Shown piece by piece: positions 15,224 through 50,077 of a DNA stretch of 64,000 bases. The first letter of the stretch is position 1. Every line of letters starts with the position of its first letter. This DNA is from Clostridiaceae bacterium Marseille-Q4143 (GTDB lineage: Bacteria > Bacillota > Clostridia > Lachnospirales > Lachnospiraceae), in assembly GCA_018228645.1 (NCBI GenBank), contig CP073693.1, positions 2,676,416-2,740,415 on the forward strand, read 5' to 3'. The notes beneath the pieces were generated by a model, which was not told the origin of the DNA, did no database searches, and saw only the letters and a program-made list of their open reading frames with translations. The position numbers and the translations under genes are program-made.

Positions 15224-15442
15224 ATGGCAGTTAGTTATAAGAAATTATGGAAGTTATTAATTGATAAAGATATGATGAAAAAGGATTTACGTGCGAAGAC
15301 AGGTGTCAGCACAACGACAATGGCCAGACTGTCTAAAGACGAAAATGTGAGTACTGAAATTTTGTCAAAAATATGTTCTGTGCTTAGCTGTGATGTGGGA
15401 GATATTGTAGAGTTTGTTCCGGATAAAAAAGAGAATCAATAG
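15224..15442 (+). CDS. XRE-family HTH regulator of the BREX operon
   Basis: A 72-residue single-domain Cro/C1-type HTH protein (LRAKTGVSTTTMARLSKDENVSTEILSKIC). Small XRE proteins of this type often head restriction and defence operons and act as autorepressors or delay switches. It lies 16 bp before brxA and downstream of the candidate promoter and inverted repeat. That it controls the whole BREX operon is inference from position. Confidence 0.85.
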   Translation: MAVSYKKLWKLLIDKDMMKKDLRAKTGVSTTTMARLSKDENVSTEILSKICSVLSCDVGDIVEFVPDKKENQ

Positions 15443-15458
15443 GGAGGCAGTAAGTAAG

Positions 15459-16064
15459 ATGGATAGTACATACCCGTATATTGCTTCTCTGACAAGGGAG
15501 CCATTCCTTTTTTATGAAATGCGTTCTACCGCAAAGCTGATGGCAGAAGGAAATTCAGATGATGCGATTGTGAAAGAAATTGTAGAGCAAAATCTTTTTC
15601 AGTACCCAACGGAAAAATCTATCACACGCATGGCGAAAGCCTGCATCAAACGGCTTCATGCACTGGAAGATGATTCTCTGGTTTCTGCGATTGCATCACA
15701 GCCAACGGATGTGGCAAAACAGATTTGTTTGTATACATTGATGAAGCAGAGCCGACTGGTCTGGGAATTTATGCTGACCGTCATTGGCGAGAAGTACAGA
15801 TTAAGGGACACGTCTTTTGGTAAGATAGATTTGAATACATTTTTTATGCGTTTGCAGGAACAGAATGATACCGTAGCTTCCTGGAGCGATACCACAATAA
15901 CAAAGTTAAAACAGATCATTGCCAGAGTGCTTGTCGAAACAGAATATCTCGACAATCTCAAGGCAGATCATTTGAATCCAGTATGGCTGCATCCTGTTTT
16001 GGAGAATGCCATCAGAAGCAATGGCGATACTGCGATACTGCCAGCGTTTAATTGCTTTTCATAG
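15459..16064 (+). CDS. brxA: BREX protein BrxA (DUF1819)
   Basis: A 201-residue protein with the DUF1819/BrxA look: YIASLTREPFLFYEMRSTAKLM at the start, followed by a helical body. BrxA homologues are small DNA-binding-like proteins of type 1 BREX. The ATG at 15459 is chosen for the GGGAGG 10 nt upstream; the longer frame runs back into the XRE gene. It is followed by brxB and brxC in the canonical order, which makes the assignment firm. Confidence 0.9.
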   Translation: MDSTYPYIASLTREPFLFYEMRSTAKLMAEGNSDDAIVKEIVEQNLFQYPTEKSITRMAKACIKRLHALEDDSLVSAIASQPTDVAKQICLYTLMKQSRLVWEFMLTVIGEKYRLRDTSFGKIDLNTFFMRLQEQNDTVASWSDTTITKLKQIIARVLVETEYLDNLKADHLNPVWLHPVLENAIRSNGDTAILPAFNCFS

Positions 16065-16075
16065 GAGGTAGCCTG

Positions 16076-16636
16076 ATGAGTGATATAAAAGAACGCCTGG
16101 ACAAAGTTCGGGCATTGATCCAGGAACCGGAGTTTCTGGAAGGCAAGGGACTCAGCAATGAGGTGAATATCAGAATCTTCTGTTATGAACCGGAGAATGA
16201 AATGGTTGTCCGCCATTTTGTGAATCAGCTGGAAACCGATCAGTCCTTAGATTGCCATTTGATTGTTTGTAATTTATATAAAACATTTCTCTCTATCTGC
16301 GATGATATGGACATCACAGATGCCATTCCCGATATGGAGGAAGCTGACGGAAGTGCTTATCTTTTGGAGCAGCTTAACTCTGCAATCGGCAATGGAGAGT
16401 TCATTGATAAAATCCAGTATGAGCCGCACGAACCGGGTGATGTGCTGATGCTGACAGGTGTAGGTGAGGTGTTCCCGTTTATGAGAATCCATACTTTACT
16501 GGAAGCCTTGCAACCGTATTTTTCGGATGTTCCGATTTTGGTTATGTATCCAGGTGAATTTGATGGTCGTCATGTAAAACTGTTCAATCGTCTGACACCA
16601 AATGATTATTACCGGGCATTCAATGTCATAGATTAA
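16076..16636 (+). CDS. brxB: BREX protein BrxB (DUF1788)
   Basis: A 187-residue DUF1788 protein: MSDIKERLDKVRALIQEPEF, IFCYEPENEMVVRHFV, then DVLMLTGVGEVFPFMRIHTL and ILVMYPGEFDG near the C-terminus. BrxB is a core but poorly understood BREX component. AGGAGG precedes the ATG at 16076. brxC begins 13 bp later. Confidence 0.93.
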   Translation: MSDIKERLDKVRALIQEPEFLEGKGLSNEVNIRIFCYEPENEMVVRHFVNQLETDQSLDCHLIVCNLYKTFLSICDDMDITDAIPDMEEADGSAYLLEQLNSAIGNGEFIDKIQYEPHEPGDVLMLTGVGEVFPFMRIHTLLEALQPYFSDVPILVMYPGEFDGRHVKLFNRLTPNDYYRAFNVID

Positions 16637-16649: not shown

Positions 16650-19600
16650 ATGATGATTCGAGATATGTTTGCGGATGACATTAACCGCAAAATCAATGGT
16701 GTAATTAAAGTAGATCAGGCTGCTGATGATGTAATCGAGCAGGAGTTAAATGAATATGTCATTACCAGAGAATTGAAGAAACACTTCATTACGTTCTTCA
16801 ACTATTACGGTGATGCTTTCGACCAGCCGACAGCCGATATGGGTGTTTGGATTTCTGGTTTCTTTGGAAGTGGTAAATCTCACTTCTTGAAAATGCTTTC
16901 CTACCTTTTAGAAAATAAAGAGGTAAAAGGTATCCGCAGTGTGGAACGTTTTCGTAAAAAATTTGAGGATGACCCGGCAACTTTTATGCTGATCGACCGT
17001 GCCACGAAGGGACAGACGGAAACCATTCTTTTCAACATTGATATTGAAGGCTTCAGCAATAAAGACAAGACGGCTGTACTTCGTGTATTTGCAAAGATGT
17101 TCTACAACCATCTGGGATTTTACGGTGAAAATCTGAAAGTTGCCATGATGGAGCGTTATATTGACCAACAGGGAAAAACTGAGGAGTTCCGCAAAGTTTT
17201 TGAAGAAAAGAAAGGTAAGTCCTGGCTGGAAATGCGCCGTGCATTTGCTTTCAATGGCAAGTTTATCATTCCGACATTGATGGAAGTTCTGGATATGAGT
17301 GAGGACGATGCCAAGGCGTGGTTCAATGATAAAACCGCAACAGAAATTTCTATTGCACAGCTTGTGGAAGATATGAAAGCTTATGTAGATACTAAACCAG
17401 CCAACTTCCGTCTGCTGTTTATGATTGACGAGGTTGGTCAGTATGTTGGTACAGATACTGATATGCTTTTGAACCTCCAGTCTCTGACCGAAAAAATCGG
17501 AAGTGAGTGCGAAGGTAAGATTTGGGTGATCTGCACCGGACAGGAAGCCATTGATGAAATCATCAAAGTCCGCGCCGATGAGTTTTCCCGTATCCAGGCT
17601 CGTTTCAAGACAAGATTGAGCTTATCTTCGTCCTCCGTGGATGAGGTTATTCAGAAGCGTATTTTGAAAAAGAAACCGGAAGCAGCCAAAGACCTGGAAG
17701 GTGTTTATGAGCAGAATGATTCAGTCTTGCGTAACCTGTTCAGTTTCAGTGGCTCTATTCTGGACATTAAAGGCTACTCCGGTCCGAGGGAATTTACCGA
17801 GAATTTCCCGTTCGTGCCGTACCAGTTCATCATCATGCAGAAGGTATTTGCTGAAATTCGGAAACACGGAAATTCAGGCAAGCACTTGTCTGGTGGTGAG
17901 CGTTCCATGCTGTCTGGTTTCCAGGAAGCTGCACAGAAAATTCAGGAGAAGGATGAATACGCACTTGTTCCGTTCTTCCGTTTTTATGATACCGTACATA
18001 CTTTCCTGGACGGTTCTATCCGTCGGGTGATCGAGCGTTGTCAGAAAGCTGCCGACAACGGCGATGGCATCGAACAGCAGGATGTGGATGTGCTGAAACT
18101 TCTGTACTTGATTCGATATATTGATGATATTCCTTCTAATCTGGACAATATCGTTATCCTTATGGCAGACGATATTCGTGTAGATAAGATTATCATGCGT
18201 GAAGCTGTCCTTGGATGCCTTGACCGTCTGATGAGCCAGAACTATATTGGCAGAACTGGCGATACTTATACTTTTCTGACCGATGAGGAACAGGACATTC
18301 AGCGTGAAATCAGAGATACTAATGTGGATACCGCTTCTATCGTGGAGCGTATCGCCCAGATGATTTATGGCGATATTTTCACAACCAAGAAGTTCCGTTA
18401 TGGGAAATATGACTTTGCTTTCGATCAGATGGTAGATGGCATTACGGTTGGAGTGGCAACAGGTGGTATGCGTCTGCGTTTCCTGACCGTTGCTACCGAT
18501 GCTATTGAAAAAACAGATTACCGTCTGATGGCAGAGTCCAAAGGTAATGAAGCAATCGTGGTTTTGGCTGATACGCCTTACTATGAATCTTTGGAATCAG
18601 CTATGAAGATTCGTAAGTATGTATTGCAAAGAAATGTAAACTCATTACCAGATACAGTAAAGGAAATTATTGAAAATAAACAGCGTGAAGCCACAAAATA
18701 TGAGCTGAGTGCCATGACTGAATTGCAAAATGCAATTGTAGAGGCGCAGTTCTATGTGGATGGTGAACATCTGGAAATCAAATCCGGGAATGCCAAGAGC
18801 AAGATTGACCAGTCTCTTGAATATCTGGTCGCTCATGTATATAGCAAGCTCGACCTGATTACAGATAATGCAAGCAGTGATGCGGATATTGTTGCGATTC
18901 TGACAGGTGCGGTAACAGCACTTCCGGGCATGGAGCCGAACCGCGATGCTGCTTCTGCTATGGAAGAATATCTGGAAATGCAGGATGCGAAAAAGTTGCC
19001 GACTTCCATGGCAGATGTGCAAAGTAAATACAGTGCGATACCGTATGGCTGGAAAGAAATCGACATTGCTGCGGTTGCGGCACAGCTGATTTATTCCCAG
19101 AAAGTAACCATCAAGTATGCGGGCAATACCATTCAGCCGGATGACTCGAAACTGCCAGATATGCTCCGCAAAAAGAGTGAGATTGGTAAGACTTCCATCA
19201 GCAAGCGTAAAACCATTTCCGCTACGATGATGCGTGATGTAAAAGCAATGCTCCGTGAGTATTTCGATATCATGGATGTACCAGATGATGAAGATGGTCT
19301 GATTCGCTTTGTGACCGAGAAATTCAGTGAACAGCGTGATTACTATGCTTCTCTGGATGCCCGTTATGACGGACATAAATACCCGGATCGTGCATTGGTG
19401 CAGGAAGCCATTCATCTGATGGATGATGTACTTTCTCAGAAGAAAGACAATATTGCCCTGGTTGAGCGTGTGCTAAAAAAAGAGGATGCTCTTTTTGATA
19501 ACAAAGAAGCCATGAGCAATGGTATTGAAAATTTCTTCAAGACCCAGGTAACCGTATTCGACCAGGCAGTGCAGTTTGAAAAATCTCTGCATGATGACCT

Positions 19601-20198
19601 TGACCGTATTGCGGAAAATGAGGAGGCGTACAAGGCTCTGAATACCATTCGCCTGATTACTCTGGCTCAGACCGGAAGTAAGTTCAATTATAACCGGATT
19701 CGTGAACTGAATCCATTGATGGATACCGTTCGTACTGCCCATGATAGGATGCTGGAGGAAAAACGTGCGGAGGTTCTGGAAACGGTTCGTCAGTGTATGG
19801 AAGCAACCCACACTGCCGCAAACAGCGATTCCAAAGCATCCCATCTGATTGAAAAATCAGACCGGTATTTCAGCCAGTGCAAGGAGAAAATCGCAGAATT
19901 AAAGAGTCTTGCCCTTCTGGATGCTATGTTCCTGCCGATGTGCCAGTACAAGGATGATACAGTTAGCAATATCGAGTCTGTTCTGGCTCCGCCTGCACCA
20001 AAGCCGCCAGTACAGCCGACACAGCCAGGAAAAGAAGCAGCTCCGGCAAAGAAAAAGGTTGTCCGTGCCTACAACCGTCAGGTCGTATTCCAGGCAAAAA
20101 CCTTACAGACGGATGCGGATATTGATGATTATGTAGAGAAGATTCGTTCTCAACTGAAACAGTTGCTGAAGAATTGCGATGAGATTAAGCTGAACTAA
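16650..20198 (+). CDS. brxC: BREX P-loop ATPase BrxC
   Basis: This 1182-residue protein has the size and motifs of BrxC/PglY. The Walker A is GFFGSGKS at residues 70-77 and the Walker B is LLFMIDEVGQYVG near residue 257. The N-terminal AAA-like region is followed by a long helical body and a short Pro/Lys-rich linker (PPAPKPPVQPTQPGKEAAPAK split over residues about 1111-1131) before the tail. BrxC is an AAA+ ATPase needed for BREX phage exclusion. Base composition is about 50% GC, like brxB and the ends of pglX, in sharp contrast to the next gene. Confidence 0.95.
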   Translation: MMIRDMFADDINRKINGVIKVDQAADDVIEQELNEYVITRELKKHFITFFNYYGDAFDQPTADMGVWISGFFGSGKSHFLKMLSYLLENKEVKGIRSVERFRKKFEDDPATFMLIDRATKGQTETILFNIDIEGFSNKDKTAVLRVFAKMFYNHLGFYGENLKVAMMERYIDQQGKTEEFRKVFEEKKGKSWLEMRRAFAFNGKFIIPTLMEVLDMSEDDAKAWFNDKTATEISIAQLVEDMKAYVDTKPANFRLLFMIDEVGQYVGTDTDMLLNLQSLTEKIGSECEGKIWVICTGQEAIDEIIKVRADEFSRIQARFKTRLSLSSSSVDEVIQKRILKKKPEAAKDLEGVYEQNDSVLRNLFSFSGSILDIKGYSGPREFTENFPFVPYQFIIMQKVFAEIRKHGNSGKHLSGGERSMLSGFQEAAQKIQEKDEYALVPFFRFYDTVHTFLDGSIRRVIERCQKAADNGDGIEQQDVDVLKLLYLIRYIDDIPSNLDNIVILMADDIRVDKIIMREAVLGCLDRLMSQNYIGRTGDTYTFLTDEEQDIQREIRDTNVDTASIVERIAQMIYGDIFTTKKFRYGKYDFAFDQMVDGITVGVATGGMRLRFLTVATDAIEKTDYRLMAESKGNEAIVVLADTPYYESLESAMKIRKYVLQRNVNSLPDTVKEIIENKQREATKYELSAMTELQNAIVEAQFYVDGEHLEIKSGNAKSKIDQSLEYLVAHVYSKLDLITDNASSDADIVAILTGAVTALPGMEPNRDAASAMEEYLEMQDAKKLPTSMADVQSKYSAIPYGWKEIDIAAVAAQLIYSQKVTIKYAGNTIQPDDSKLPDMLRKKSEIGKTSISKRKTISATMMRDVKAMLREYFDIMDVPDDEDGLIRFVTEKFSEQRDYYASLDARYDGHKYPDRALVQEAIHLMDDVLSQKKDNIALVERVLKKEDALFDNKEAMSNGIENFFKTQVTVFDQAVQFEKSLHDDLDRIAENEEAYKALNTIRLITLAQTGSKFNYNRIRELNPLMDTVRTAHDRMLEEKRAEVLETVRQCMEATHTAANSDSKASHLIEKSDRYFSQCKEKIAELKSLALLDAMFLPMCQYKDDTVSNIESVLAPPAPKPPVQPTQPGKEAAPAKKKVVRAYNRQVVFQAKTLQTDADIDDYVEKIRSQLKQLLKNCDEIKLN

Positions 20199-20216
20199 AT
20201 ATAATTACAGGGAAAT

Positions 20217-21164
20217 ATGAATATTCGAAAAAAGGAAGAAAAGAAATCAATAGATCTAAAAATAAATGATATTGTACCAGAACATGTACAAAAAAATATA
20301 GGAAAAATGATTAAAGATTATCAACCGATGATACAGGCACAAGCAAATGTAAAGGCAATGGTTGAGTTATTTAATACATCAGTGAAAATATCTATTCCAG
20401 ATACAAAGCAAATACAAGAGACGATAAATAATTTCAAAAGATTATTTGCTACATTTACGAATTTTGAGTTTAGTGAACTTTCGGATATCTCGCGAAGAAT
20501 AACAGCGGGAATTTCTGATGTAATTCAGAAAATAAAAATTCCTTCAATTTCCGAAGAAAAGAAACAGCAGATTATTGAGTCATACAGGATATGGGGAAGT
20601 TATGGATGGACGGTAAATCCGTATTCAAATGCAAAAACGTTATTTAAAATTATGCCTGTTGATAAAAAATCAGCTGATGCTATTGCATTAAAACAATGCT
20701 CTAAGAAAAATATGGAACAAATATTTGAAATTATAGAAAAAACTAAAAGAGTAAAGAAAACAGATTTTAGTGAGGCTATTTTTGATTATGAGCATAAACA
20801 ATATAAATCCTGTGCACTTATTTTGTTCTCGCTGATTGATGCTGCTCTGATTAGATTACAAAAGAAATCACCTTTGAATGGAAAACGACGCGATGTGGGA
20901 ATAAAGGCTGTGCATGCTGCGAAGAAACGAACAGAAGCAGATGTGAATACAACATTATTTTTAACAGCAATATTTTGTTGTAATCTTTTTGCTTGCCTTG
21001 AAAAAGTCTTTGAAAATGGAAATGATTTCAAAAAGCAGCCAGCAATTATAAATAGAAATTTTTTGAATCATGGAATGCTTACAAAGAAAGTTGCACGGAA
21101 GGATTGTGTACAATTATTTTTGCTATATTATAATGTGCTTGAACTGTTAGATATGATTTATTGA
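20217..21164 (+). CDS. AT-rich helical protein with HEPN-type RNase motif, inserted in the BREX operon
   Basis: A 315-residue, lysine-rich, all-helical protein that I do not recognise as a BREX core family. Residues 280-285 are RNFLNH, which fits the HEPN ribonuclease signature R-polar-x3-H, in a C-terminal helical domain (about 195-315) of suitable size. Residues 1-130 are probably coiled coil. GC is very low: hand counts give 23% (20221-20280) and 18% (20701-20760) against about 50% in brxC. It sits between brxC and pglX in the same direction, 18 bp and 14 bp from its neighbours. An abortive-infection RNase role is inference. Confidence 0.8.
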   Translation: MNIRKKEEKKSIDLKINDIVPEHVQKNIGKMIKDYQPMIQAQANVKAMVELFNTSVKISIPDTKQIQETINNFKRLFATFTNFEFSELSDISRRITAGISDVIQKIKIPSISEEKKQQIIESYRIWGSYGWTVNPYSNAKTLFKIMPVDKKSADAIALKQCSKKNMEQIFEIIEKTKRVKKTDFSEAIFDYEHKQYKSCALILFSLIDAALIRLQKKSPLNGKRRDVGIKAVHAAKKRTEADVNTTLFLTAIFCCNLFACLEKVFENGNDFKKQPAIINRNFLNHGMLTKKVARKDCVQLFLLYYNVLELLDMIY

Positions 21165-21178
21165 TTGAGGTAATTGTT

Positions 21179-24100
21179 ATGGATAAGAATGCAATTAAAA
21201 AATTTGCTGTCTGGGCACGGACAGAGCTGATCGCTCGTGTTTCCCTGAAATGCGTGGAATACGGTATTACAGAGGACAACATTGAGGATGCCAATGCGGA
21301 CAGCGTTGGCGGCAAAGTCCTCACTGCCGATGAAAAGAAACAGCGTCAAGCTCTGATTGCCGAGATTAACGATAAAGGATATAAGCAGGTCATGGAGGAG
21401 GTTGCCTACACTTGGTTCAATCGCTTCTCTGCTCTGCGATTCATGGAAGTCAACGGCTATCTTCCGTCCCATGTGCGTGTATTCACGGACGAGGAAAATA
21501 ACTTTAAGCCGCAGATTATAACCGAAGCCATTCATCTGGATTTGGATGGACTGGATATGGAGAAGGTCTATGAACTGAAAGATGCAGAAAAAACCGAAGA
21601 ACTGTATAAATATCTGCTGATCGTGCAGTGCAATGCTCTGAATAAGATTCTGCCGGGAATGTTCCAGAGACTCTCGGACTACACCGAGCTTCTTTTGCCG
21701 GACAATCTGCTTCGTGAAGGCAGCGTCATTCAGCAGATGATTGAGCTGATACCGGAGGATGACTGGAAGGATGCTGTCCAGATTATTGGCTGGTTGTACC
21801 AGTTTTATAATATAGAACCGAAGGCAAAAGTTTTCTCAAAAGAGGGACGATTGAGCAAAGTAGAAATTCCTGCTGCTACACAACTTTTTACCCCAGATTG
21901 GATTGTTCGATATTTGGTTGAAAATAGTCTTGGACGTAGTTGGTTTAATTTGACTCATAATACTGAGGTGAAATCAACATGGAAATATTATATGCAAGAA
22001 GCCGAACAAGAGGAAAATATAAAATCTTGTCTTGAAAGTATCTGGAATAATCAACAATTGGATATTCAAAAATTGCGTTGTATAGATCCTTGTATGGGAA
22101 GTGGACATATCCTTACATATATGTTTGATGTACTTGTACAGATATATATATCAGATGGCTATTCTATTCGTGAAGCAGTTGAGAGTATTGTAACGAATAA
22201 TCTTTGGGGACTTGATGTGGATGAACGTGCTGCTCAATTAGCTTATTTTTCGATTATGATGAAAGCACGTCAATACGATAGACGTTTCTTTGCACGAAAT
22301 ATTCAACCGAATGTATTTGAAATCAGAGAAAGTAATGGGCTAGACAAGGCGTGTATTGATTACTTTGTAAATGATGATTCAAGTTTGAAAAAAGCACTTT
22401 CAAGTTTGCTTAATGATTTGCATGATGCAAAAGAGTATGGTTCAATTTTGAATGTTCAAAGTGTAGATTTTTCTGCGTTATATGATCGTTTTGATGCTAT
22501 TCAAAGTGAAATCAGTTTATATACTTTACCTACATTGAGTGAATTACTTCCTTTAGTAAAAGTGGCTGAAGTAATGACCCAAAAATACGATGTTGTAGTA
22601 ACGAATCCACCTTACTTAAATCAGGATAATATGCCGCCTAAACTTCTCGATTATGTTTTAACACATTATGAGATGGTAAAATATGATTTATATGCGGTTT
22701 TTATGCTCAAGTGCAAAGCAATGCTCATGCCGAATGGGATTATGGCAATGATTACAATGCATAATTTTATGTATGCAAAAGGGTTCGCTCGGTTACGAGA
22801 ACATATTAGTAATTGGAGATGGATTAATATGATACATCTTGGACCGAGAGCATTTAGTGAAATTAGTGGAGAAGTTGTTCAAACTTGTGCTTTCTGTATC
22901 GGAAATGAACCATTTTGTACCAATATGCAGGTCTGTAATTTGGTAGAAATAAAAAATTCAGATGAAAAAGAAACTGCGTTTTTAAGCGGAGAATATTCTA
23001 ATAATGTTCTAAATTTCAATGATGTTCCCTGTATGCCAGGTGGAGCTTTTGGTTACGGACTTGGAGATAAAATTCTTGGCTTATATAAAGAGAATAGTAT
23101 TCTTGAAAAATTTGTAACATCGAAAGCGGGGGTTGTTACAGGTAAAGATGATTACTTCATTCGACATTGGTCAGAAATTAGGTACGATGAAATAACATTC
23201 ATGCCAGACCGAGGACAGATTTATAAGTATACTCTCTTTAGCAAAGGTGGAACTTTTGATAGATGGTATGGTAATGATCAGTATGTAATTAAATTGAAAG
23301 ATTTATGGGATGACAGAAAAACAAATAAATCTGTAAGGCGAGGAGATCGAGATTACTATTTTCGTAGAGGTATTGGTTGGTCACAGATGGGTGGTGGAGT
23401 TGACAAGAGTTATAGCGAAATAAGGGACTGTGTCTGTAAAAATTCGACTCCAATGATCTATCTAAATGATGCCCGACTTTTTGAATATGTTTTGGGATAT
23501 CTCAACTCTGGTCTAGTATCATCAATATTAAAAGCACTTAATCCGACGCTGAGTATGTTCATTTCGGATATTTTTTCGCTACCATTTATTGTTGATGAAG
23601 CCCGCATAAATGACGTAAAAAAACTCGTAAATAGGGCAATGGATATTTCTAGAGGAGAATATGTGGAAAAAGAGGAACATTGGCAGTTTATTGGAGTACC
23701 GTACTGCCATAAAGGCAGTTTTGCTGCTCAAATCAGTAATTATCAGAAATGTCGGCAGGAGAATTGTCAAGAGCTATATAACATTCTTGACAATTTGAAT
23801 TTAATATTCAGTGAAATCATGGGATTTGGGCGAAGAGAAAAAATGACTTTTTCCGATTGTTGTTACACTCCCCTTGAAGATGTGAAACGATTTATTTCAT
23901 ATGCTGTTGGATGTATGTTTGGACGCTATTCTCTAGATGTAAGCGGAATTGCATTTGCTGGAGGAAAATGGGACACTTTAAAGTATGTTTCATTTCCAGT
24001 AGACAGAGATGGCATTATCCCAATATGTGATGACGAATATTTTAAAGACGATATTGTCGGTCTGTTCGTAGAGTTCGTAAAAACTGTTTACGGTGCAGAC

Positions 24101-24580
24101 ACATTGGACGAAAACTTGAAATTCATTGCCGATGCATTGGGCGGCAAAGGCCAGCCGAAGGATGTGATTCGGAATTATTTCCTGAGTGATTTCTATTCTG
24201 ACCATTGCAAGATTTATCAGAAACGCCCGATTTACTGGCTGTTTGACAGTGGCAAGAAGAACGGCTTTAAGGCTCTGATTTATATGCACCGTTATCAACC
24301 AGATACCATTGCCCGTATCCGTACCGATTATGTGCATGAACAACAGGCTCGTTATCGCACTGCCATTGCCGATCTGGAACAGCGCATTGCCAATGCTTCA
24401 ACCGGTGAGCGTGTGAAGCTGAATAGAAAGTTGACCACCTTGCAGGCACAGGATAACGAAATCAGAACCTACGAGGAAAAGATTCATCACCTTGCCGACC
24501 AGATGATTCCCATTGACTTGGATGATGGCGTGAAGAAAAATTATGCAATTTTCCAGGATGTTTTGGCTAAAATAAAGTAA
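21179..24580 (+). CDS. pglX: BREX adenine-specific DNA methyltransferase PglX
   Basis: This 1133-residue protein starts MDKNAIKKFAVWARTELI, a typical PglX opening; the ATG at 21179 is preferred to an upstream TTG. Methyltransferase motif I is DPCMGSGHI (about residues 303-311) and motif IV is NPPY (about 475-478), as in N6-adenine MTases. PglX marks self DNA and is needed for phage exclusion. Base composition is mosaic: hand counts of 60-bp lines give 53% GC at 21661, 28% at 22441, 28% at 23281 and 48% at 24121. The AT-rich part holds the catalytic and target-recognition regions, which suggests specificity exchange. Confidence 0.95.
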   Translation: MDKNAIKKFAVWARTELIARVSLKCVEYGITEDNIEDANADSVGGKVLTADEKKQRQALIAEINDKGYKQVMEEVAYTWFNRFSALRFMEVNGYLPSHVRVFTDEENNFKPQIITEAIHLDLDGLDMEKVYELKDAEKTEELYKYLLIVQCNALNKILPGMFQRLSDYTELLLPDNLLREGSVIQQMIELIPEDDWKDAVQIIGWLYQFYNIEPKAKVFSKEGRLSKVEIPAATQLFTPDWIVRYLVENSLGRSWFNLTHNTEVKSTWKYYMQEAEQEENIKSCLESIWNNQQLDIQKLRCIDPCMGSGHILTYMFDVLVQIYISDGYSIREAVESIVTNNLWGLDVDERAAQLAYFSIMMKARQYDRRFFARNIQPNVFEIRESNGLDKACIDYFVNDDSSLKKALSSLLNDLHDAKEYGSILNVQSVDFSALYDRFDAIQSEISLYTLPTLSELLPLVKVAEVMTQKYDVVVTNPPYLNQDNMPPKLLDYVLTHYEMVKYDLYAVFMLKCKAMLMPNGIMAMITMHNFMYAKGFARLREHISNWRWINMIHLGPRAFSEISGEVVQTCAFCIGNEPFCTNMQVCNLVEIKNSDEKETAFLSGEYSNNVLNFNDVPCMPGGAFGYGLGDKILGLYKENSILEKFVTSKAGVVTGKDDYFIRHWSEIRYDEITFMPDRGQIYKYTLFSKGGTFDRWYGNDQYVIKLKDLWDDRKTNKSVRRGDRDYYFRRGIGWSQMGGGVDKSYSEIRDCVCKNSTPMIYLNDARLFEYVLGYLNSGLVSSILKALNPTLSMFISDIFSLPFIVDEARINDVKKLVNRAMDISRGEYVEKEEHWQFIGVPYCHKGSFAAQISNYQKCRQENCQELYNILDNLNLIFSEIMGFGRREKMTFSDCCYTPLEDVKRFISYAVGCMFGRYSLDVSGIAFAGGKWDTLKYVSFPVDRDGIIPICDDEYFKDDIVGLFVEFVKTVYGADTLDENLKFIADALGGKGQPKDVIRNYFLSDFYSDHCKIYQKRPIYWLFDSGKKNGFKALIYMHRYQPDTIARIRTDYVHEQQARYRTAIADLEQRIANASTGERVKLNRKLTTLQAQDNEIRTYEEKIHHLADQMIPIDLDDGVKKNYAIFQDVLAKIK

Positions 24581-24593
24581 GGAGGGCTTGAGT

Positions 24594-24833
24594 ATGATGA
24601 CGGATGAAAAAATCAAAAATTCCAGTGAGCTGGAGTTTGCTGTATTTTGCATTGAAAATGTAGCGGCAAAGCTGGGTGTGGATGCAGAGCGTATTTATCA
24701 GGCATTTACCGAACAGAGCGATATTCTGAACGGTTACATTGTGCCGGAATATGAAGTGCTGCATACCCAGAGCCGGGAATATATCGTTGATGACCTCCTT
24801 GATGTGATGAAAGAAAGGGGTGTGGAAGTATGA
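24594..24833 (+). CDS. DUF3791-like small protein (candidate antitoxin)
   Basis: A 79-residue protein (ELEFAVFCIENVAAKLGVDAERIY ... YIVPEYEVLHTQSREYIVDDL) of the DUF3791 type, small and probably helical. The ATG at 24594 has GGAGGG 7 nt upstream. It overlaps the following DUF3990 gene by 4 bp, an arrangement typical of toxin-antitoxin pairs. The antitoxin role is inferred from size, order and coupling. Confidence 0.75.
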   Translation: MMTDEKIKNSSELEFAVFCIENVAAKLGVDAERIYQAFTEQSDILNGYIVPEYEVLHTQSREYIVDDLLDVMKERGVEV

Positions 24834-25300
24834 TTCTCCATCATGGTTCCTTTTTAGAGATTGCAAAGCCTGATTTGGTTCATTCCCGCCCCAATGTAGA
24901 CTTCGGGCGTGGCTTCTATGTCACGCCGCTGTATGAACAGGCGGCGAAGTGGTGCGGCAAGTTTAAACGCCGTGGGAAAGATGGAATTATCTCCCGGTAT
25001 GAATACGATGAAAATCGGGAAGCTGAACTAAAAACGCTGAAATTTGATTCCTATTCCGAAGAATGGTTGGATTTCATTCTGAACTGCCGCAGCGGAAAAG
25101 ATTCGACAGATTATGACCTTGTTGTGGGCGGTGTTGCCAATGATAAGGTGTTCAATACCGTGGAGCTGTTCTTTGACGGACTGATTGATAAAACGGAAGC
25201 TATCAACCGCCTGCGTTATGAAAAGCCGAACCTGCAAATATGTTTCCGAACAGAGAAAGCATTGTCTCTGCTGCGTTTTGAAGGGAGTGAAACACTATGA
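24830..25300 (+). CDS. DUF3990 protein, ADP-ribosyltransferase-like (candidate toxin)
   Basis: A 156-residue protein with DUF3990 features: LHHGS at residues 3-7, DFGRGFYVT at 24-32, YDLVVGGVANDKVF at 95-108 and NLQICFRTEKAL at 134-145. His4/5, Tyr30 and Gln136 are candidates for the H-Y-Q/E catalytic set of an ADP-ribosyltransferase fold; I recall DUF3990 being placed in that clan. It overlaps both flanking small genes by 4 bp, so the three are translationally coupled. It lies inside the BREX operon between pglX and pglZ. Toxicity and target are unproven. Confidence 0.75.
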   Translation: MILHHGSFLEIAKPDLVHSRPNVDFGRGFYVTPLYEQAAKWCGKFKRRGKDGIISRYEYDENREAELKTLKFDSYSEEWLDFILNCRSGKDSTDYDLVVGGVANDKVFNTVELFFDGLIDKTEAINRLRYEKPNLQICFRTEKALSLLRFEGSETL

Positions 25301-25521
25301 CAGCAAACCCGATTTTGCTTCAGAAAAAATATAGCCGTGTTATTGAATGCTTTGCCAAACAGCAGGGACTTTCACTGGATGCGGCATTGGATTTCTTTTA
25401 TCATTCCCAGGTCTATCAGCTGATCCGTGACGGTGTTTCTGATATGCATTGCATGAGCGATCTGTATCTTGCAGAAGAACTGAAACAAGAATATGTGGAA
25501 AAAATGGCGAAGAATAAATAA
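25297..25521 (+). CDS. Small DUF3791-type partner protein
   Basis: A 74-residue protein: ANPILLQKKYSRVIECFAKQ, LDAALDFFYHSQVYQLIRDG, then VSDMHCMSDLYLAEEL. Proteins with this VSDMHCMSD pattern regularly sit beside DUF3990 genes and are commonly labelled DUF3791. It overlaps the DUF3990 gene by 4 bp and closes the three-gene unit. It could be a second antitoxin subunit or a DNA-binding regulator; nothing in the sequence decides this. Confidence 0.75.
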   Translation: MTANPILLQKKYSRVIECFAKQQGLSLDAALDFFYHSQVYQLIRDGVSDMHCMSDLYLAEELKQEYVEKMAKNK

Positions 25522-25535
25522 TCTCATAAAATGTG

Positions 25536-25586
25536 AAAAAAGTCCCCGTGATTCAAGCATCTGCAGGCAGACACCATCACGGAGAC
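25536..25586 (-). terminator. Minus-strand terminator-like hairpin
   Basis: Read on the minus strand, GTCTCCGTGAT pairs with ATCACGGGGAC (one mismatch) around a loop of about 23 nt, followed by six T residues. It is oriented against the operon. No minus-strand gene is visible that it would end. Confidence 0.5.
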
Positions 25587-25704
25587 TCCAAAGGCTGGAA
25601 TACAGGCAACATAGCATCTGTAAACAGATACCAGAAAGGATGCTCTATAAACCTATTTATAGTATATAAAATGAAAAGATAGTTGTCAAATTTTGGAAAC
25701 AAAA

Positions 25705-25736
25705 TAAAAAACCGGTAATCGCAATACGAAAACCGG
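25705..25736 (-). terminator. Second minus-strand terminator-like hairpin
   Basis: On the minus strand CCGGT pairs with ACCGG, with an inner TCG/CGA pairing, followed by TTTTTT. With the preceding hairpin it makes two tandem minus-strand signals in the gap before pglZ. The gap 25522-25998 otherwise holds only the repeat array. Confidence 0.5.
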
Positions 25737-25815
25737 ATTCTCCTTCTAAACGTGTTAGATGAGTTAATATTATTATATGCGTTACAAGGGAAAAAAGTCA
25801 ATGCGAAAAAACAAA

Positions 25816-25976
25816 TAACGCCACCATTAACGCCATAAACAACGCCAATGGCACTGAAAATGGCGTTAATGATAGAGCGAGTGCCGGATAATGGCGTTAA
25901 AGTGCCAGATAAGTGCCGATAAAGTGCCGGATACTGAAAAAAGTGCCGGATAAGTGCCGATAAAATGCCGGATACC
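25816..25976 (+). repeat. Array of short repeats upstream of pglZ
   Basis: Two motif families lie side by side. AACGCCA occurs three times between 25816 and 25850 and its complement TGGCGTT twice between 25860 and 25900. A direct repeat AGTGCCGGATA, with variants AGTGCCAGATA, AGTGCCGATA and AATGCCGGATA, occurs about seven times between 25880 and 25976, ending about 20 bp before the pglZ ATG. One reading is the relic of a coding linker of the N-D/T-I-N and K-V-P-D type found in Fic or Schlafen-like proteins; another is an operator array. Confidence 0.75.
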
Positions 25977-25998
25977 AAGGAAGGAAAGAAAGTGACTT

Positions 25999-28641
25999 AT
26001 GGATACAGACAAAGTAATACAGGACTTGAACCGCAGATTTGCTGCACCTCTGCCGGAGTTTTATCAGCGTCGTATCATCTTCTGGTATGACGAAGATAAG
26101 GAATTTGAGGATAAGCTGGACGAGGTGGTTCTGGAAAATGCAAAGGTGATTGCATTAACTGGCAATAATACGTTTTCGGTGAAGAAGCTGCTTTCAGTAG
26201 ATGATTTGACCACAAACTATCTGGTTTACAGTCCGTGCGTCTATAACCGCCCGGATGATAACTGGCTTCTGGATGTGGAGCTTTACAGTGAGGAGTTCCG
26301 GGCAGACCTGATTTCCATCTGGATGGATGAGATGGGACTTGCATCGAATCCGGTCATGCGGAAGCAGGTCAAGAATTACCGTGCTTATTTCAATGCAAAA
26401 GACCGTCGATTGAAAGTCAGCACACAGAGTAAAGTCCCGGCAACTCCGGCACAGCTGCACATGGCGGTCATGGCGGCAATCTGCGGATTGAAAGACCCAC
26501 AGCCGAATATGATTCTCCGCAGTGTATTTCGGGCAGGACTGGACTTGAATAATAATGCGGTTTATCAGGATTTTGTAAAATATCATACTGACGGGGCATT
26601 TTGGGCGATGGTTCGCCAGGGCTGCGGATTTGTAGAGGAAGAACCAGATCTCGGACGGCTGGCAATTCATTTATTGTTGACTGCCGCTACCCGTACCATG
26701 CGGCAGGAATATCTTGCCGGACTGGATGGATTCATTTCTATGCCGCATCAGGCATATTGCTATGATTTTATTTCTGAATGGCTTCACAGCGAGGATATGG
26801 GACAGCTTTATGATGTGGCACGGTATGTTGAGGAGGAAGCACGTCTGCATCAGCGTTTTGAAAAGCTGACAGTGAATGATCTGGCAGGAACCGAATGCTT
26901 CCCATGTATCAACGAAGTGATTCTGACAAAGCTGATGACAGAGATCAGCGACCATATTATTGATGTGGATGCCATTACTTCCACTGTTGAGAAACGGAGA
27001 ACCTGTGCATGGTATGAGTCATTTGAGAATTTCTATGACGGTATCCTGCAAGTAGCGAATATGCAGAGCTTCTTCAAGAAACATTCTGCCGGATTCCACA
27101 CCGCAGAAGCAAAAGGCATCTGGAAAGAATATACGGGAAGCTACTATCAGATGGATACCTATTATCGTTTGTTCCATCTGAGCTTCCAAAAAAGCCTGGA
27201 GACTTCCAATATTTTGTTGGACGATTTGTTTAAGCATGTTGTCGATAAAGTGGAAGGACTTTATACCCATTGGTTTTTAGGTGAGCTGGGTAACAATTGG
27301 TCAGATGTATGTGCAGATGAACTGGCGAATTACGGTAAAGTTCTGGAAGTACCGCAACAGGAGGAGTTTTATCGTTCCCGCATTCAGACTTCGGACACGA
27401 AAGTATTTGTGATTATTTCAGATGCCATGCGGTATGAAGTGGCAGCAGCCATGGCAGATCAGCTTCAGAGAGAAACACAGAGCAAGGTTTCTATCAGCAG
27501 TATGCAGAGCATCTTCCCTTCGATTACAAAGTTCGGTATGGCAGCTTTGTTGCCGCACAAAGAACTGACAGTAGAAGTTCGGAACAATGTTTTGACGGTT
27601 CTGGCAGATGGCCAGTCTACGGCGAGCCCGTACCGGGATAAGGTTCTGAAATCAGAAGATCCGGCAAGTGTGGCTTTAAAGTACAATGACATTATTGCTA
27701 TGAAGCGGGCAGAGCGAAGTGCGCTGGTAAAGGGCATGGATGTGGTTTACATTTATCATGATACCATTGATGAAGCCAGCCATACTTCTGATACCGCGGT
27801 TTTCGCTGCCTGTGAGAAAGCAATTTCGGAACTGAAGAACCTTGTTCGTATTATTGTAAATGAATTTGGCGGAACGAATATTCTGATTACGGCTGACCAT
27901 GGATTCCTTTATACATACAGTCCGCTGACTGAAGATGACAAAGTAGGAAGAAATGAGTTTTATGATGTAGACAGGGGTAATACCAGCGACTTGAAAAGAG
28001 AAAGTGCGAGACGTTGTGTGGAATATGGCAGACGCTATGCCATCATGAAGAAAGGTGCACAGCCGAATTATCTGCTGCCTGTGAAGTTCCTGGGTGGAAA
28101 TACGGAATTTGATGGATTTGCACCGAGAGAAAGCATCCGTATTAAGATGAATGGTGGCGGCATGAACTTTGTGCATGGCGGTATCAGCTTGCAGGAAATG
28201 GTTGTTCCGGTGATCGAATATCACTATCTCCGCAATGATTCGATGGAATATAAGCGTAATAAACAGAAATACGATACCAAGCCGGTAATGGTCAATTTGC
28301 TGTCCGCAAACCGTAAAATCAGCAATATGATTTTCTCATTGAACTTCTACCAAAAGGACGCAGTCAGTGCAAACCGAGAAGCGGCCACCTATCAGGTTTA
28401 CTTTACGGACGAAAACGGCAAGCAGATCAGTGATGTTCAGAAGATTATTGCAGATAAAACCAGCGATAACGGCGCAGAAAGAACATTCCGCTGCCAGTTT
28501 AATCTGAAGTCTCTGAAATACAGCAATACCGCTACTTACTATCTGGTAATTGCGGACGAACAGGGATTGCAGATGCCGCAGGGGGAGCCGTTCCAGATTG
28601 ACATTGCCTTTGCGGTGGATGAGTTCGATTTCTTTAGTTAA
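25999..28641 (+). CDS. pglZ: BREX alkaline-phosphatase-fold protein PglZ
   Basis: An 880-residue PglZ of the BREX type 1 (PglZ-A) kind. The alkaline-phosphatase-like core is visible: VFVIISDAMRYEVAAAMADQ near residue 470 and ITADHGFLYTYS near residue 630, with further conserved parts around SMQSIFPSITKFG and MNFVHGGISLQEMVVPV. PglZ is an essential BREX component; its homologue has been shown elsewhere to act as a metal-dependent hydrolase. GC and codon use match brxA-C. It is separated from the upstream genes by a 478-bp gap with repeats. brxL would be expected next, but is absent. Confidence 0.94.
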   Translation: MDTDKVIQDLNRRFAAPLPEFYQRRIIFWYDEDKEFEDKLDEVVLENAKVIALTGNNTFSVKKLLSVDDLTTNYLVYSPCVYNRPDDNWLLDVELYSEEFRADLISIWMDEMGLASNPVMRKQVKNYRAYFNAKDRRLKVSTQSKVPATPAQLHMAVMAAICGLKDPQPNMILRSVFRAGLDLNNNAVYQDFVKYHTDGAFWAMVRQGCGFVEEEPDLGRLAIHLLLTAATRTMRQEYLAGLDGFISMPHQAYCYDFISEWLHSEDMGQLYDVARYVEEEARLHQRFEKLTVNDLAGTECFPCINEVILTKLMTEISDHIIDVDAITSTVEKRRTCAWYESFENFYDGILQVANMQSFFKKHSAGFHTAEAKGIWKEYTGSYYQMDTYYRLFHLSFQKSLETSNILLDDLFKHVVDKVEGLYTHWFLGELGNNWSDVCADELANYGKVLEVPQQEEFYRSRIQTSDTKVFVIISDAMRYEVAAAMADQLQRETQSKVSISSMQSIFPSITKFGMAALLPHKELTVEVRNNVLTVLADGQSTASPYRDKVLKSEDPASVALKYNDIIAMKRAERSALVKGMDVVYIYHDTIDEASHTSDTAVFAACEKAISELKNLVRIIVNEFGGTNILITADHGFLYTYSPLTEDDKVGRNEFYDVDRGNTSDLKRESARRCVEYGRRYAIMKKGAQPNYLLPVKFLGGNTEFDGFAPRESIRIKMNGGGMNFVHGGISLQEMVVPVIEYHYLRNDSMEYKRNKQKYDTKPVMVNLLSANRKISNMIFSLNFYQKDAVSANREAATYQVYFTDENGKQISDVQKIIADKTSDNGAERTFRCQFNLKSLKYSNTATYYLVIADEQGLQMPQGEPFQIDIAFAVDEFDFFS

Positions 28642-40047: not shown

Positions 40048-40105
40048 TTCAGTTTGGTAGTTTTTTGTAGGTTACAATTTAAATAAGATGTGGAGGTATG
40101 TAACT

Positions 40106-41038
40106 ATGAAAATCTCACAGGCACTGAGAGAGAAGACTCTTCTTTCTTTCGAGCTCTTCCCGCCGAAGACAGAGAAAGGAATGGAGAATCTGCCTGGTAC
40201 CATCGACCATCTGATGAAGTACAAACCGGCATATATTTCCTGTACCTATGGCGCAGGTGGCGGAAACGTCGGCGCTAACAGAGAAGTATGTCAGATGATC
40301 AAAAAAGCAGGTACCACACCGGTTACCCACTTTACGGTTATCAAAAATACCAAAGAGGGTATCAAAGAGCAGCTGGATCAGTATCTTGCAGAAGGTGTTG
40401 ATCACATGCTGGCACTCCGTGGAGATATTCCGCTGGGTGAGACCACGACTTGTGGTGACTTTAATTATGCAACGGACCTTGTAAAATTTGTTCGTGATAC
40501 TTACGGCGACAAATTTGAGATCGCAGTAGCAGGATCTCCGGAGGGACACATTGCATGCCGCAGCCTGGATGCAGACATTGCAGTCCTGAAACAGAAGCAG
40601 GACAATGGCGCTGACTACATCATGACTCAGCTTTGCTGGGATATGGAGCAGTTCAGATACTGGCTGGATGCAATCCGCGAGGCAGGTATTACCATGCCGG
40701 TAGACGTGGGAGTTATGCCAATTCTTGATATGGGAGCTACCATCAACATGGCACTTTCCCGTAATGGCTGTGTGATGGACAGCGAGCTTTGCAGAATGAT
40801 TTCCAGACACTGGCTGTTCCCGAATCCGTTCGCAGCAAAAGATGCAGACGGAAAACCGTTCGACATGTTCTATGATAAGAAAGTCGAAGAGTTCAAAGAG
40901 GAAGGTATCCAGTATACCATCAGACAGATTGATGAGTATCGTGCAATGGGCGTAAACGGAATCCATCTGTATGCTCTGAACAAGTGGAAAGATGTATCCC
41001 GCATCATCGACGAGTCCGGACTTTGCACTCTCGTTTAA
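40106..41038 (+). CDS. metF: Methylenetetrahydrofolate reductase
   Basis: MetF reduces methylene-THF to methyl-THF, the last step of the methyl branch. The 310-residue TIM-barrel protein has SFELFPPKTEKG, ISCTYGAGGGN, HMLALRGDIP and IMTQLCWDME, typical for the FAD-binding family. The ATG at 40106 is chosen for GGAGG 9 nt upstream. The partner metV and electron-input rnfC2-like genes found with metF in some acetogens are not next to it, so the electron donor cannot be read from the context. Confidence 0.94.
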   Translation: MKISQALREKTLLSFELFPPKTEKGMENLPGTIDHLMKYKPAYISCTYGAGGGNVGANREVCQMIKKAGTTPVTHFTVIKNTKEGIKEQLDQYLAEGVDHMLALRGDIPLGETTTCGDFNYATDLVKFVRDTYGDKFEIAVAGSPEGHIACRSLDADIAVLKQKQDNGADYIMTQLCWDMEQFRYWLDAIREAGITMPVDVGVMPILDMGATINMALSRNGCVMDSELCRMISRHWLFPNPFAAKDADGKPFDMFYDKKVEEFKEEGIQYTIRQIDEYRAMGVNGIHLYALNKWKDVSRIIDESGLCTLV

Positions 41039-41073
41039 GAAAAAGACAATAGACAGATTTAGGAGATGACAAT

Positions 41074-41844
41074 ATGCCATATACAATTGCAGTGGCAGGA
41101 AAAGGCGGCGTGGGCAAAACCACGCTGACCGGTATGATGATTCAATATTTGGCTGACAAGAAGGAAGGCCCGATTCTGGCAGTTGATGCCGATGCGAATT
41201 CTAATTTGAATGAGGTCCTAGGTGTGGATGTGGAAATGACACTGGGAGATATCCGAGACGAGCTCTCAAAAGCGGAAGTTTCTGATGATAGCCCGATTCC
41301 GAAAGGAATGTCCAAGCAGGATTATACCGAGTTCAAGTTTGATTCCGCATTGGTAGAGGAAGATGACTACGATCTGCTGGTTATGGGTCATACACAGGGA
41401 AAAGGGTGCTATTGCTTTGTAAATGGTCTGCTGTCGGCTCAGGTCGGAAAGCGCGCCCAGAATTACAAGTACATCGTGGTAGATAATGAGGCTGGTATGG
41501 AACATATCAGCAGAGGAATTCTTCCGGGTGTAGATGCTGTAATTCTGGTCAGCGACTGTTCACGCAGAGGAATTCAGGCAGTAGGACGCATTGCACGTCT
41601 GATTCCTGAGTGCGGACTGAAGCCGAAGAAAGTCGGTCTGATCGTAAACCGCGCTCCGGGCGGAGTTATCAATGACGGTGTCCGCGAGGAAATCGAGAAA
41701 CAGAATCTCGAACTTCTGGGAGTGGTTCCCCAGGATGAAGGTGTATTTGACTATGACAGTGCCGGAACTCCTACAACGCAACTTCCGGCAGATAATCCTG
41801 TCAGACAGGGATTGTATCATATTTTAGAAGGTCTTGGGCTTTAA
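41074..41844 (+). CDS. cooC: CooC-type nickel-insertion ATPase (first copy)
   Basis: A 256-residue MinD/SIMIBI-class ATPase with a deviant P-loop (GKGGVGKTT, residues 9-17) and the CxC pair (GKGCYCFVN, about residues 110-118) that binds a metal at the dimer interface in CooC. It is thought to drive nickel loading of the CODH C-cluster. It lies 26 bp before the CODH gene. A second copy follows CODH. Confidence 0.93.
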   Translation: MPYTIAVAGKGGVGKTTLTGMMIQYLADKKEGPILAVDADANSNLNEVLGVDVEMTLGDIRDELSKAEVSDDSPIPKGMSKQDYTEFKFDSALVEEDDYDLLVMGHTQGKGCYCFVNGLLSAQVGKRAQNYKYIVVDNEAGMEHISRGILPGVDAVILVSDCSRRGIQAVGRIARLIPECGLKPKKVGLIVNRAPGGVINDGVREEIEKQNLELLGVVPQDEGVFDYDSAGTPTTQLPADNPVRQGLYHILEGLGL

Positions 41845-41869
41845 AAGCCTGACTATAAAGGAGATTTAT

Positions 41870-43762: not shown

Positions 43763-43806
43763 TCCGGATAAGAAAGTAAATTGATATAAGACCGGAGGGA
43801 AAGACA

Positions 43807-44574: not shown

Positions 44575-44593
44575 ATTTTGGAGGTATAATACC

Positions 44594-46723: not shown

Positions 46724-46779
46724 TTAGAAGGCGGAAAATCAAGCACGAGCGTGGCGAGTATTTGATTTTACCCAATTTT

Positions 46780-46809
46780 GGGCACCCTGCATAGCAGGGT
46801 TGCCCTTTT
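46780..46809 (+). terminator. Terminator or attenuator between acsB and acsD
   Basis: GGGCA-CCCTGC pairs with GCAGGG-TTGCCC around an ATA loop, followed by TTTT. Since acsDC follow in the same direction, it may be a partial terminator. Confidence 0.8.
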
Positions 46810-46825
46810 GGAATGCATAAAACTC

Positions 46826-46853
46826 TTTACGAAAAGGAGTTTTATGGTATAAT
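46826..46853 (+). promoter_or_regulatory. Possible internal promoter for acsDC
   Basis: A perfect TATAAT (46848-46853) is 16 bp after TTTACG (46826-46831), downstream of the acsB hairpin. It would let acsD and later genes be made separately. Confidence 0.55.
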
Positions 46854-46896
46854 ATAGTATTTGTGTGATATATTTTTTTGAGGAGGAGAATTACCA

Positions 46897-47838: not shown

Positions 47839-47863
47839 TTGTGGTAAGGAGGGAAATAAGACA

Positions 47864-49210: not shown

Positions 49211-49221
49211 AATAGATACGA

Positions 49222-49241
49222 CTGCCGGTTTTAACCGGCAG
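49222..49241 (+). promoter_or_regulatory. Intercistronic hairpin between acsC and acsE
   Basis: A perfect 9-bp stem, CTGCCGGTT / AACCGGCAG, encloses TT. There is no T-tract, so it is more likely an mRNA stability or processing element than a terminator. Confidence 0.6.
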
Positions 49242-50060: not shown

Positions 50061-50077
50061 TAATCAGAGCGATTTTG

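Follow-up and report, generated by a model that had tools for sequence, protein, structure and literature searches.

The DNA analysed here, a 64,000-nucleotide stretch from Clostridiaceae bacterium Marseille-Q4143 (hereafter the window), carries a bacteriophage exclusion (BREX) gene cluster whose pglX gene is the subject of this work. An earlier reading made from the letters alone (the sequence-only reading) had proposed that the AT-rich middle of pglX, containing the catalytic and target-recognition core, was exchanged by recombination in conserved ends. We found that pglX is a mosaic, in which near-standard ends of a widespread BREX-1 PglX enclose a catalytic, recognition and spacer module of a rare class. 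It is likely that this module arrived by homologous recombination, and it would change the motif that is marked. The features of the gene are given below; residue numbers are those of the window's PglX, GC4 is the GC share at fourfold-degenerate codon sites, and L and P numbers are our handles for comparison loci and proteins.

21179..24580, plus strand: pglX, 1133 amino acids (aa), by family a BREX-1 adenine methyltransferase and specificity factor (NCBIfam NF033452, 1174 bits, cut-off 500)
21179..21810, plus strand: conserved N end (helical N-terminal domain) of the common type, 94-100% aa identity to many of 40 profiled homologues, GC4 0.62 (21179-21793)
21788..21823, plus strand: left junction region, conserved block aa 204-215, beside a low-confidence linker (aa 214-234); invariant residues, identity edge
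21811..24030, plus strand: exchanged module of catalytic domain, target-recognition domain and spacer; identity, classes, trees, GC4 0.21 (21800-24028); right edge uncertain, 23891 to about 24030
22085..22108, plus strand: S-adenosylmethionine (SAM)-binding motif DPCMGSGH, aa 303-310, with invariant D303, P304, C305, G307, S308, G309 and H310
22604..22615, plus strand: catalytic NPPY motif, aa 476-479; just downstream is the 5′ edge of the smaller cassette
22619..23659, plus strand: smaller exchangeable cassette, aa 481-827, comprising the end of the catalytic domain and the target-recognition domain; identity edges, GC4 steps, 27 types
23648..23692, plus strand: right-hand junction (aa 824-838) of the smaller cassette, around E832, W835 and F837, which are conserved; 91 of 119 pairs have their edge at aa 820-829
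23891..23938, plus strand: conserved block FISYAVGCMFGRYSLD, aa 905-920, opening the right-junction zone of the large module; conservation, identity edge
24031..24580, plus strand: conserved C end of the common type; identity profiles, GC4 0.57 (24035-24580)

The encoded protein matched the NF033452 profile and contains the SAM-binding motif and NPPY, placing it in the PglX family, and it is related to E. coli BrxX over the full length of the sequence (E 6e-193). Its predicted model, with a mean predicted local distance difference test (pLDDT) of 84.8, fits the solved structures 8c45 (template-modelling score, TMq, 0.85-0.87) and 9ewz (TMq 0.82). Comparison with 8c45, 8q56 and 9ewz indicated that the N-terminal bundle and the catalytic, recognition, spacer and C-terminal parts are all present in the model.

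The ends and the core of this protein have different distributions. From 120 listed homologues, 40 were profiled in 50-aa bins, and many of these were 94-100% identical to the window's PglX over aa 1-200 and 950-1133 and 18-76% identical per bin in between. At the DNA level, brxC, the pglX ends and, where present in the data, pglZ shared about 83-93% identity with the window in 17 of 85 loci, whereas the best aligned piece spanned just 8-28% of the core. Against 12 close loci, DNA identity was 0.90 up to 21811 (aa 211), 0.51 beyond it and 0.85 from 23891 (aa 905) onward; in a 30-bp profile of 11 loci the flank level was regained from about 24030, so that the right edge of the large module is uncertain by about 140 bp. 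The left edge adjoins G204, W205, Y207, Q208 and Y210, which are invariant in 42 rows, and the predicted model has a pLDDT below 50 at aa 214-225 and 227-234. Residue 211 aligns to approximately residue 222 of E. coli BrxX, and the available parts of the structural papers place the end of the N-terminal domain at 210 in E. coli and that of the helical bundle at 227 in Salmonella (PMC11842806, PMC11341690). Since the edges lie at conserved blocks, they are as expected if recombination took place in conserved ends. The segment singled out by the sequence-only reading, 21825-24055, lies within about 30 bp of the edges 21811 and 24030 and does contain motif I and NPPY.

Classes of PglX were defined in a sample of 199 sequences (119 proteins, 79 loci and the window) that is skewed to the window's relatives, having been gathered by searches with the window sequence. 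Besides the window, 122 sequences were kept as like-ended because their two ends averaged at least 90% identity to the window's. Single-linkage clustering of the catalytic domain plus spacer divided these 123 proteins into two classes of 119 and 4 members (the window, P0002, P0003 and P0005). Clustering of the recognition part (aa 600-830) gave 27 types whether the cut-off was 60% or 80%, and the types are mostly discrete: when all 199 sequences were compared over these residues, just 53 of 19,110 pairs had an identity between 0.6 and 0.8. Among the 120 listed homologues, the closest catalytic domains were those of P0002-P0005 (78-88%), followed by P0241 (64%) and then by proteins at 62% or less, so that the window-type catalytic domain occurs in five protein clusters, the window's and these four. 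P0004 carries such a core on different ends, with identities to the window of 0.87 in the catalytic domain, 0.90 in the recognition domain and 0.82 and 0.80 in the ends.

Five rows with a window-type core (the window and P0002-P0005) were designated by core identity before the trees were built. In the tree of the ends (379 columns, 32 rows) they did not form a clade. Four of the five lay inside the common clade (support 100/98), the window stood beside P0022 (96/87), and the starred branches required at least three label changes. Forcing the five into a clade cost a log-likelihood difference (dlnL) of 80, giving p = 4e-84 in the approximately unbiased (AU) test. In contrast, the tree of the catalytic domain (330 columns) united all five in one clade on a long branch (100/100), with P0004 nearest to the window. 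The phylogeny along pglX is thus not uniform, and the check on nearest relatives that accompanied the sequence-only reading came out in its favor: the ends point to P0022 and the common clade, and the catalytic domain to P0004 and its group. That flanks and core had different histories is supported by these alignments.

The exchanged module also stands out in composition. The five 60-bp GC counts made by hand for the sequence-only reading (53, 37, 28, 28 and 48%) proved exact, and the AT-rich segment that it described was recovered in two ways. In 300-bp windows, GC dropped from 0.44-0.46 (21150-21899) to 0.32-0.37 (21900-23999) and was 0.46-0.47 thereafter. A two-breakpoint fit to GC4 placed the segment at residues 216-975, with 0.21 inside and 0.63 outside; the log-likelihood gain of 35.0 was reached in 0 of 500 permutations, the maximum of which was 11.3. 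GC4 was 0.44 in brxC, 0.50 in pglZ, 0.47 in icd and 0.46 in recG, and the 13 other stretches measured ranged from 0.44 to 0.62 except for an AT-rich gene at 20217-21164 (0.24). The likeness of the pglX ends to brxC and pglZ held, although the value of roughly 50% GC given for them did not, the overall GC of the pglX ends, brxA, brxB, brxC and pglZ being 42-47%. Because the ends match the composition of the neighboring genes and the core does not, it would be the core rather than the ends that was imported.

Part of this dip is common to PglX. Among 126 distinct full-length pglX genes, an inner segment of lower GC4 was found in 91 (gain above 8), one of higher GC4 in 6 and neither in 29. The lower-GC4 segments had a median start at aa 481 and end at aa 848 and covered more than 60% of the recognition domain in 87 of the 91 genes. 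As a dip at about aa 480-830 is present in most homologues, we rejected the GC dip as sole proof of replacement. What is peculiar to the window is the width of its dip, that is, its AT-rich catalytic domain and spacer; its recognition-domain dip is ordinary for PglX. Its GC4 deficit in the catalytic domain (-0.45) is the largest among 125 genes, the next being -0.32, and its spacer deficit (-0.37) is among the four largest. AT-rich segments of at least 700 residues occurred in 5 of the 91 genes (the window, L043, L044, L080 and L129). Close homologues therefore largely share the window's GC profile in the recognition part; in the catalytic domain and spacer they do not, the window being an extreme or near-extreme case there. 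The claim of replacement accordingly rests on the phylogenetic conflict and on the composition of the catalytic domain and spacer, and low GC was not upheld as a mark of replacement for the segment as a whole.

A smaller exchange unit was apparent among relatives. For 16 close loci other than the window (120 pairs), a sharp swap was scored when flank identity exceeded 0.8 and identity in the middle was below 0.72. This pattern was seen in 119 pairs, with identities of 0.87, 0.50 and 0.86 in the left flank, middle and right flank and median edges at aa 481 and 827. The left edge fell at aa 480-489, right after NPPY, in 68 of the 119 pairs; the right edge fell at aa 820-829 in 91 and at aa 830-839 in 11, at the block around E832, W835 and F837. 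In the remaining pair, L007/L020, aa 203-837 were 99% identical between flanks at 94 and 91%, and silent-site identity was 0.98-0.99 in the core versus 0.69-0.87 outside. Because 119 of 120 pairs differ in the predicted target-reading part, it is likely that these PglX relatives shift their defence target by swapping a core piece among themselves. Our best reading is that there are two nested exchange units with edges at conserved blocks, either the recognition cassette alone or the catalytic domain, recognition domain and spacer together.

The cassette edges coincided with steps in silent-site composition across hosts. In the mean profile of 44 genes with a gain above 20, the window excluded, GC4 fell from 63% at aa 461-480 to 40% at aa 481-500 and rose from 40% at aa 821-840 to 63% at aa 861-880. 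Cassette and flanks could be compared in the 125 genes with enough fourfold sites. GC4 of the cassette lay more than 0.1 below that of the flanks in 86 of the 90 genes whose flank GC4 was at least 0.45 (the exceptions being L124, L127, L128 and L156), in 9 of 14 with a flank GC4 of 0.30-0.45 and in 3 of 21 below 0.30. The slope of GC4 on the flanks was 0.39 for the cassette, 0.89 for the catalytic domain and 0.90 for the spacer; in L076, from a Selenomonadaceae genome, GC4 was 0.94 outside and 0.29 inside. The dip was also present in six alphaproteobacterial plasmids and in Klebsiella and Nostoc plasmids, weak in a Rhodococcus plasmid and invisible in an AT-rich Lactiplantibacillus plasmid. 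The median of the deepest 275-codon GC4 dip was -0.10 in brxC (78 genes), -0.10 in pglZ (71 genes) and -0.27 in pglX (118 genes), and in 52 of the 58 loci that have all three genes pglX had the deepest dip. The cassette encodes slightly more amino acids with AT-rich codons (a share of F, Y, M, I, N and K, or FYMINK, of 0.36 versus 0.29-0.33). As a control, we examined 20 Type I hsdS loci (L158-L177) from 16 of 61 genomes, 14 of which had a neighboring open reading frame (ORF) of more than 200 aa, of whatever identity. GC4 of the S gene was below that of the longest neighboring ORF in all 14, by just 0.02 in two, and low silent-site GC may be a general feature of specificity genes.

In some pairs the cassettes (aa 485-815) resemble each other more closely than do the adjoining N ends: 0.66 versus 0.32 in L155/L011, 0.63 versus 0.31 in L155/L055, 0.71 versus 0.38 in L151/L043 and 0.58 versus 0.37 in L148/L039. 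These four pairs were chosen from the 108 of 7,875 that reach 0.5 in the cassette, and in most other listed pairs the N ends were more alike than the cassettes. In L155/L055, GC4 was 0.27 and 0.70 in the N ends and 0.17 and 0.23 in the cassettes. The BREX island itself is found in distant hosts, as BrxC was 91-96% identical to the window's in four genomes in which RecG was 56-61% identical (one RecG match being partial). From these observations we tentatively extend the reading, in a form that we find slightly easier to doubt than to accept, to BREX-1 PglX across bacteria: the protein would be a cassette holder whose recognition cassette, from NPPY to aa 824-838, comes from an AT-rich shared pool, circulates across species and distant backbones and never becomes fully host-like, with the window adding a larger, catalytic cassette.

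The other genes of the cluster are as follows.

15414..16064, plus strand: brxA (PF08849)
16052..16636, plus strand: brxB (PF08747)
16650..20198, plus strand: brxC (NF033441, 1227 bits)
20217..21164, plus strand: AT-rich accessory gene in the brxC-pglX slot, tentatively HEPN-like (GC 0.30, GC4 0.24)
24588..25300, plus strand: DUF3791-DUF3990 pair in the pglX-pglZ slot (PF12668 and PF13151; PADLOC PDC-M13 candidate models)
25999..28641, plus strand: pglZ (TIGR02687, 597 bits)

Profile searches thus found the BREX type 1 core set of brxA, brxB, brxC, pglX and pglZ in one cluster, ordered brxA, brxB, brxC, accessory gene, pglX, DUF3791-DUF3990 pair, pglZ, the type 1 label being based on the PglX, BrxC and PglZ profiles. 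A tblastn search with two BrxL proteins as queries (E <= 1e-5) gave no brxL match in the whole window, 28642-64000 included, unlike 48 of 59 comparable loci in which a brxL-like match was present; brxL could be elsewhere in the genome. Insertion slots with varied genes flank pglX on both sides (20199-21178 and 24581-25998). The brxC-pglX gap exceeded 400 bp in 31 of 107 loci, in two of them because of a second pglX, and the pglX-pglZ gap did so in 52 of 95, some of the loci being redundant. The accessory gene had 228 homologues (E <= 0.001), and R280, N281, F282, H285 and G286 were kept in at least 90% of 37 family rows. This nearly invariant RNF..HG resembles the RNxxxH motif of HEPN proteins, and the HEPN naming is tentative. 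In Pfam no family scored above the cut-off, a sub-threshold BAR_3 match being the only one, and no family appeared in more than 2 of the 37 members; solved structures gave a single match (E 0.15). An annotated HEPN protein occupies the same slot in the Nostoc plasmid L098, and the DUF3791-DUF3990 pair is nearly identical (94 and 96% aa) in L008. Farther downstream, 40088-57747 contains an acetyl-CoA (Wood-Ljungdahl) gene run with MTHFR, CO dehydrogenase, ACS beta, a CdhD pair, RACo, formate-tetrahydrofolate ligase and folate enzymes, which predicts an acetogenic lifestyle for the host.

Second copies of pglX occur in other loci. L048, L050 (where one copy is cut off by the locus end), L053 and L057 each contain two pglX genes whose middles differ and whose ends are more similar. 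Remnant copies of the pglX C end lie about 0.7-0.8 kb downstream of full-length pglX at L076:12325-12849 and L102:453-755 and are possibly traces of replacement. The window contains a single pglX match, with no second pglX or fragment in its 64 kb, and no recombinase or integrase domain was found in the 48 window ORFs scanned with Pfam (67 of at least 160 aa were listed, many of them antisense).

The mosaic would have arisen by homologous recombination within the conserved edge blocks, which would bring in a new core module. The common unit is the cassette that starts right behind NPPY, at aa 481, and reaches the conserved block of aa 824-838, and the rarer unit, that of the window, extends from about aa 211 to about aa 905-950 and includes the catalytic domain. 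According to the available text of PMC11842806, sequence recognition is placed in the exchanged part, and defence and methylation require a BrxB-C-X-Z complex. The constant ends (about aa 1-210 and 950-1133) presumably carry the contacts to BrxB, BrxC and PglZ; if so, an imported middle could work immediately in the old machine and would alter the DNA motif marked by the BREX system. Several observations weigh against this account. The edges scatter, the left one lying at aa 430-479 in 39 of 119 pairs and at aa 490-609 in 12, and the right one at aa 900-909 in 13. The P0004 spacer (0.78) is no closer to the window's than are the P0004 ends. Over aa 485-815 intermediates occur, 108 of 7,875 pairs reaching 0.5 and several lying at 0.6-0.8. 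The L007/L020 pair is a weak, supporting case, as the islands are about 95% identical and contain further patches at 98-100%. The converse grouping on the catalytic-domain data gave an AU p of 0.163 despite a dlnL of 345, so that this half of the conflict leans on branch support. No donor of the core was found by catalytic domain among the 120 listed homologues, and a viral scan gave seven loci with a best-segment identity of 50-69% and none with a window-like core (at least 78%). Finally, AT-richness of the cassette is so general that recent import need not follow from it.

Much of the composition could be explained without replacement if an AT-rich middle were intrinsic to the PglX coding sequence through a constraint on the recognition fold, the DNA or the mRNA. 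The frequency of the dip in genes of several phyla, particularly those with GC-rich flanks, and the elevated FYMINK share are in line with this idea. However, the dip is strong at fourfold-degenerate sites, as in L076, and is missing from L124, L127, L128 and L156 despite their GC-richer ends, indicating that it is not obligatory. Moreover, an intrinsic constraint leaves the AT-rich catalytic domain and spacer of the window, the tree conflict and the types unexplained, and we consider it improbable. A stronger contender, though still an unlikely one, is that cassettes, lacking a matching partner with which to recombine internally, avoid GC-biased gene conversion or codon selection and are AT-rich for that reason; their composition would then be an effect of history requiring no AT-rich donor pool. 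The weak tracking of host GC4 by the cassette and the low GC4 of hsdS in all 14 testable loci favor this possibility, whereas the step at NPPY is abrupt, occurring within one 20-aa bin. Escape of this kind is compatible with swapping and no substitute for it. The lasting AT-richness of cassettes may reflect either recurrent supply from an AT-rich pool or weak upward GC pressure in unpaired sequence.

The remaining alternatives concern the origin of the variation. The core might be switched within one genome, either by a recombinase or by drawing on a second, silent copy, in the manner of phase-variable pglX loci. The available parts of PMC11341690 and PMC11842806 report that pglX can be phase-variable or duplicated, and the two-gene loci and C-end remnants described above speak for this alternative, but the window has neither a second copy nor a recombinase domain among the ORFs scanned, and its core class is absent from 119 of 123 like-ended relatives. 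We regard such switching as very unlikely here. In-place divergence of the middle by fast diversifying selection, without exchange, would account for the pairs at intermediate identity over aa 485-815. It would not account for the scarcity of intermediates over aa 600-830, the abrupt changes in identity and silent sites at the edges, the window-type core on different ends in P0004 or the cassettes of L155 and L011, which are twice as similar as their N ends. We therefore rejected this highly improbable explanation on the basis of the discrete types and the tree conflict, and retain exchange of a core module as the likely origin of the window's pglX.

The consequence is that near-identical BREX machines of different species differ, in our sample, mainly by one sharply bounded piece of one gene, and cassette type could be used directly to predict the BREX systems whose marked motifs differ. 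The compositional step suggests that, in defence methylases (PglX, and hsdS in our small control), the pieces that confer specificity turn over like accessory genes within stable operons. If PglX is indeed a cassette holder, one gene would hold two compositions at once. On how BREX gains new target motifs, the available parts of the pglX and BREX papers emphasise point mutations and phase variation (PMC11341690, PMC11842806). A bounded PglX cassette, a catalytic-domain-wide swap or a compositional step was not reported in the literature searched, which comprised titles, the starts of abstracts and passages of PMC12839542. The available parts of PMC9716671, PMC12707154 and PMC10164179 likewise contain nothing on AT-rich recognition cassettes or exchange of the PglX catalytic domain. 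From the sources available, recognition-domain exchange in Type I and IIG S genes and the variability, phase variation and duplication of pglX are already known.

The closest known systems are the BREX-1 PglX/BrxX proteins of E. coli HS and Salmonella (9ewz, 8c45; PMC11842806, PMC11341690), which have the same motifs, domain order and fold as the window's PglX and in which, according to the available accounts, the recognition domain is the most variable part. Those accounts treat variability and engineering by point mutation, and exchange of the catalytic domain or a silent-site step was not found in their available text. In phase-variable or duplicated pglX loci, as described in parts of the same papers, the specificity of pglX varies too; in the window, by contrast, no second copy or recombinase domain was found. 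Embedded HEPN/Schlafen and other effectors in BREX loci (PMC12839542) are accessory genes between core genes, like that at 20217-21164; in the main text of that study the terms 'recombination' and 'GC content' appear nowhere, and its available parts leave pglX mosaicism untreated. The S genes of Helicobacter pylori Type I and IIG systems provide the nearest precedent for exchange itself, since their recognition domains are, according to the available parts of PMC3077401 and PMC3983042, likewise replaced between alleles via conserved flanks, giving new specificity. Differing recognition sequences between near-identical flanks, as in 119 of 120 pairs and the 27 types among 123 proteins, identify the PglX case as allelic exchange of target-recognition domains. 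We do not apply the name domain movement (DOMO), as PglX has one recognition domain. Whereas in H. pylori a repeat-flanked domain of a specificity subunit is exchanged, with comparisons made mostly within one species (PMC3077401, PMC3983042, in part), the PglX unit lies within a fused methylase and was compared between species, and that of the window includes the catalytic domain.
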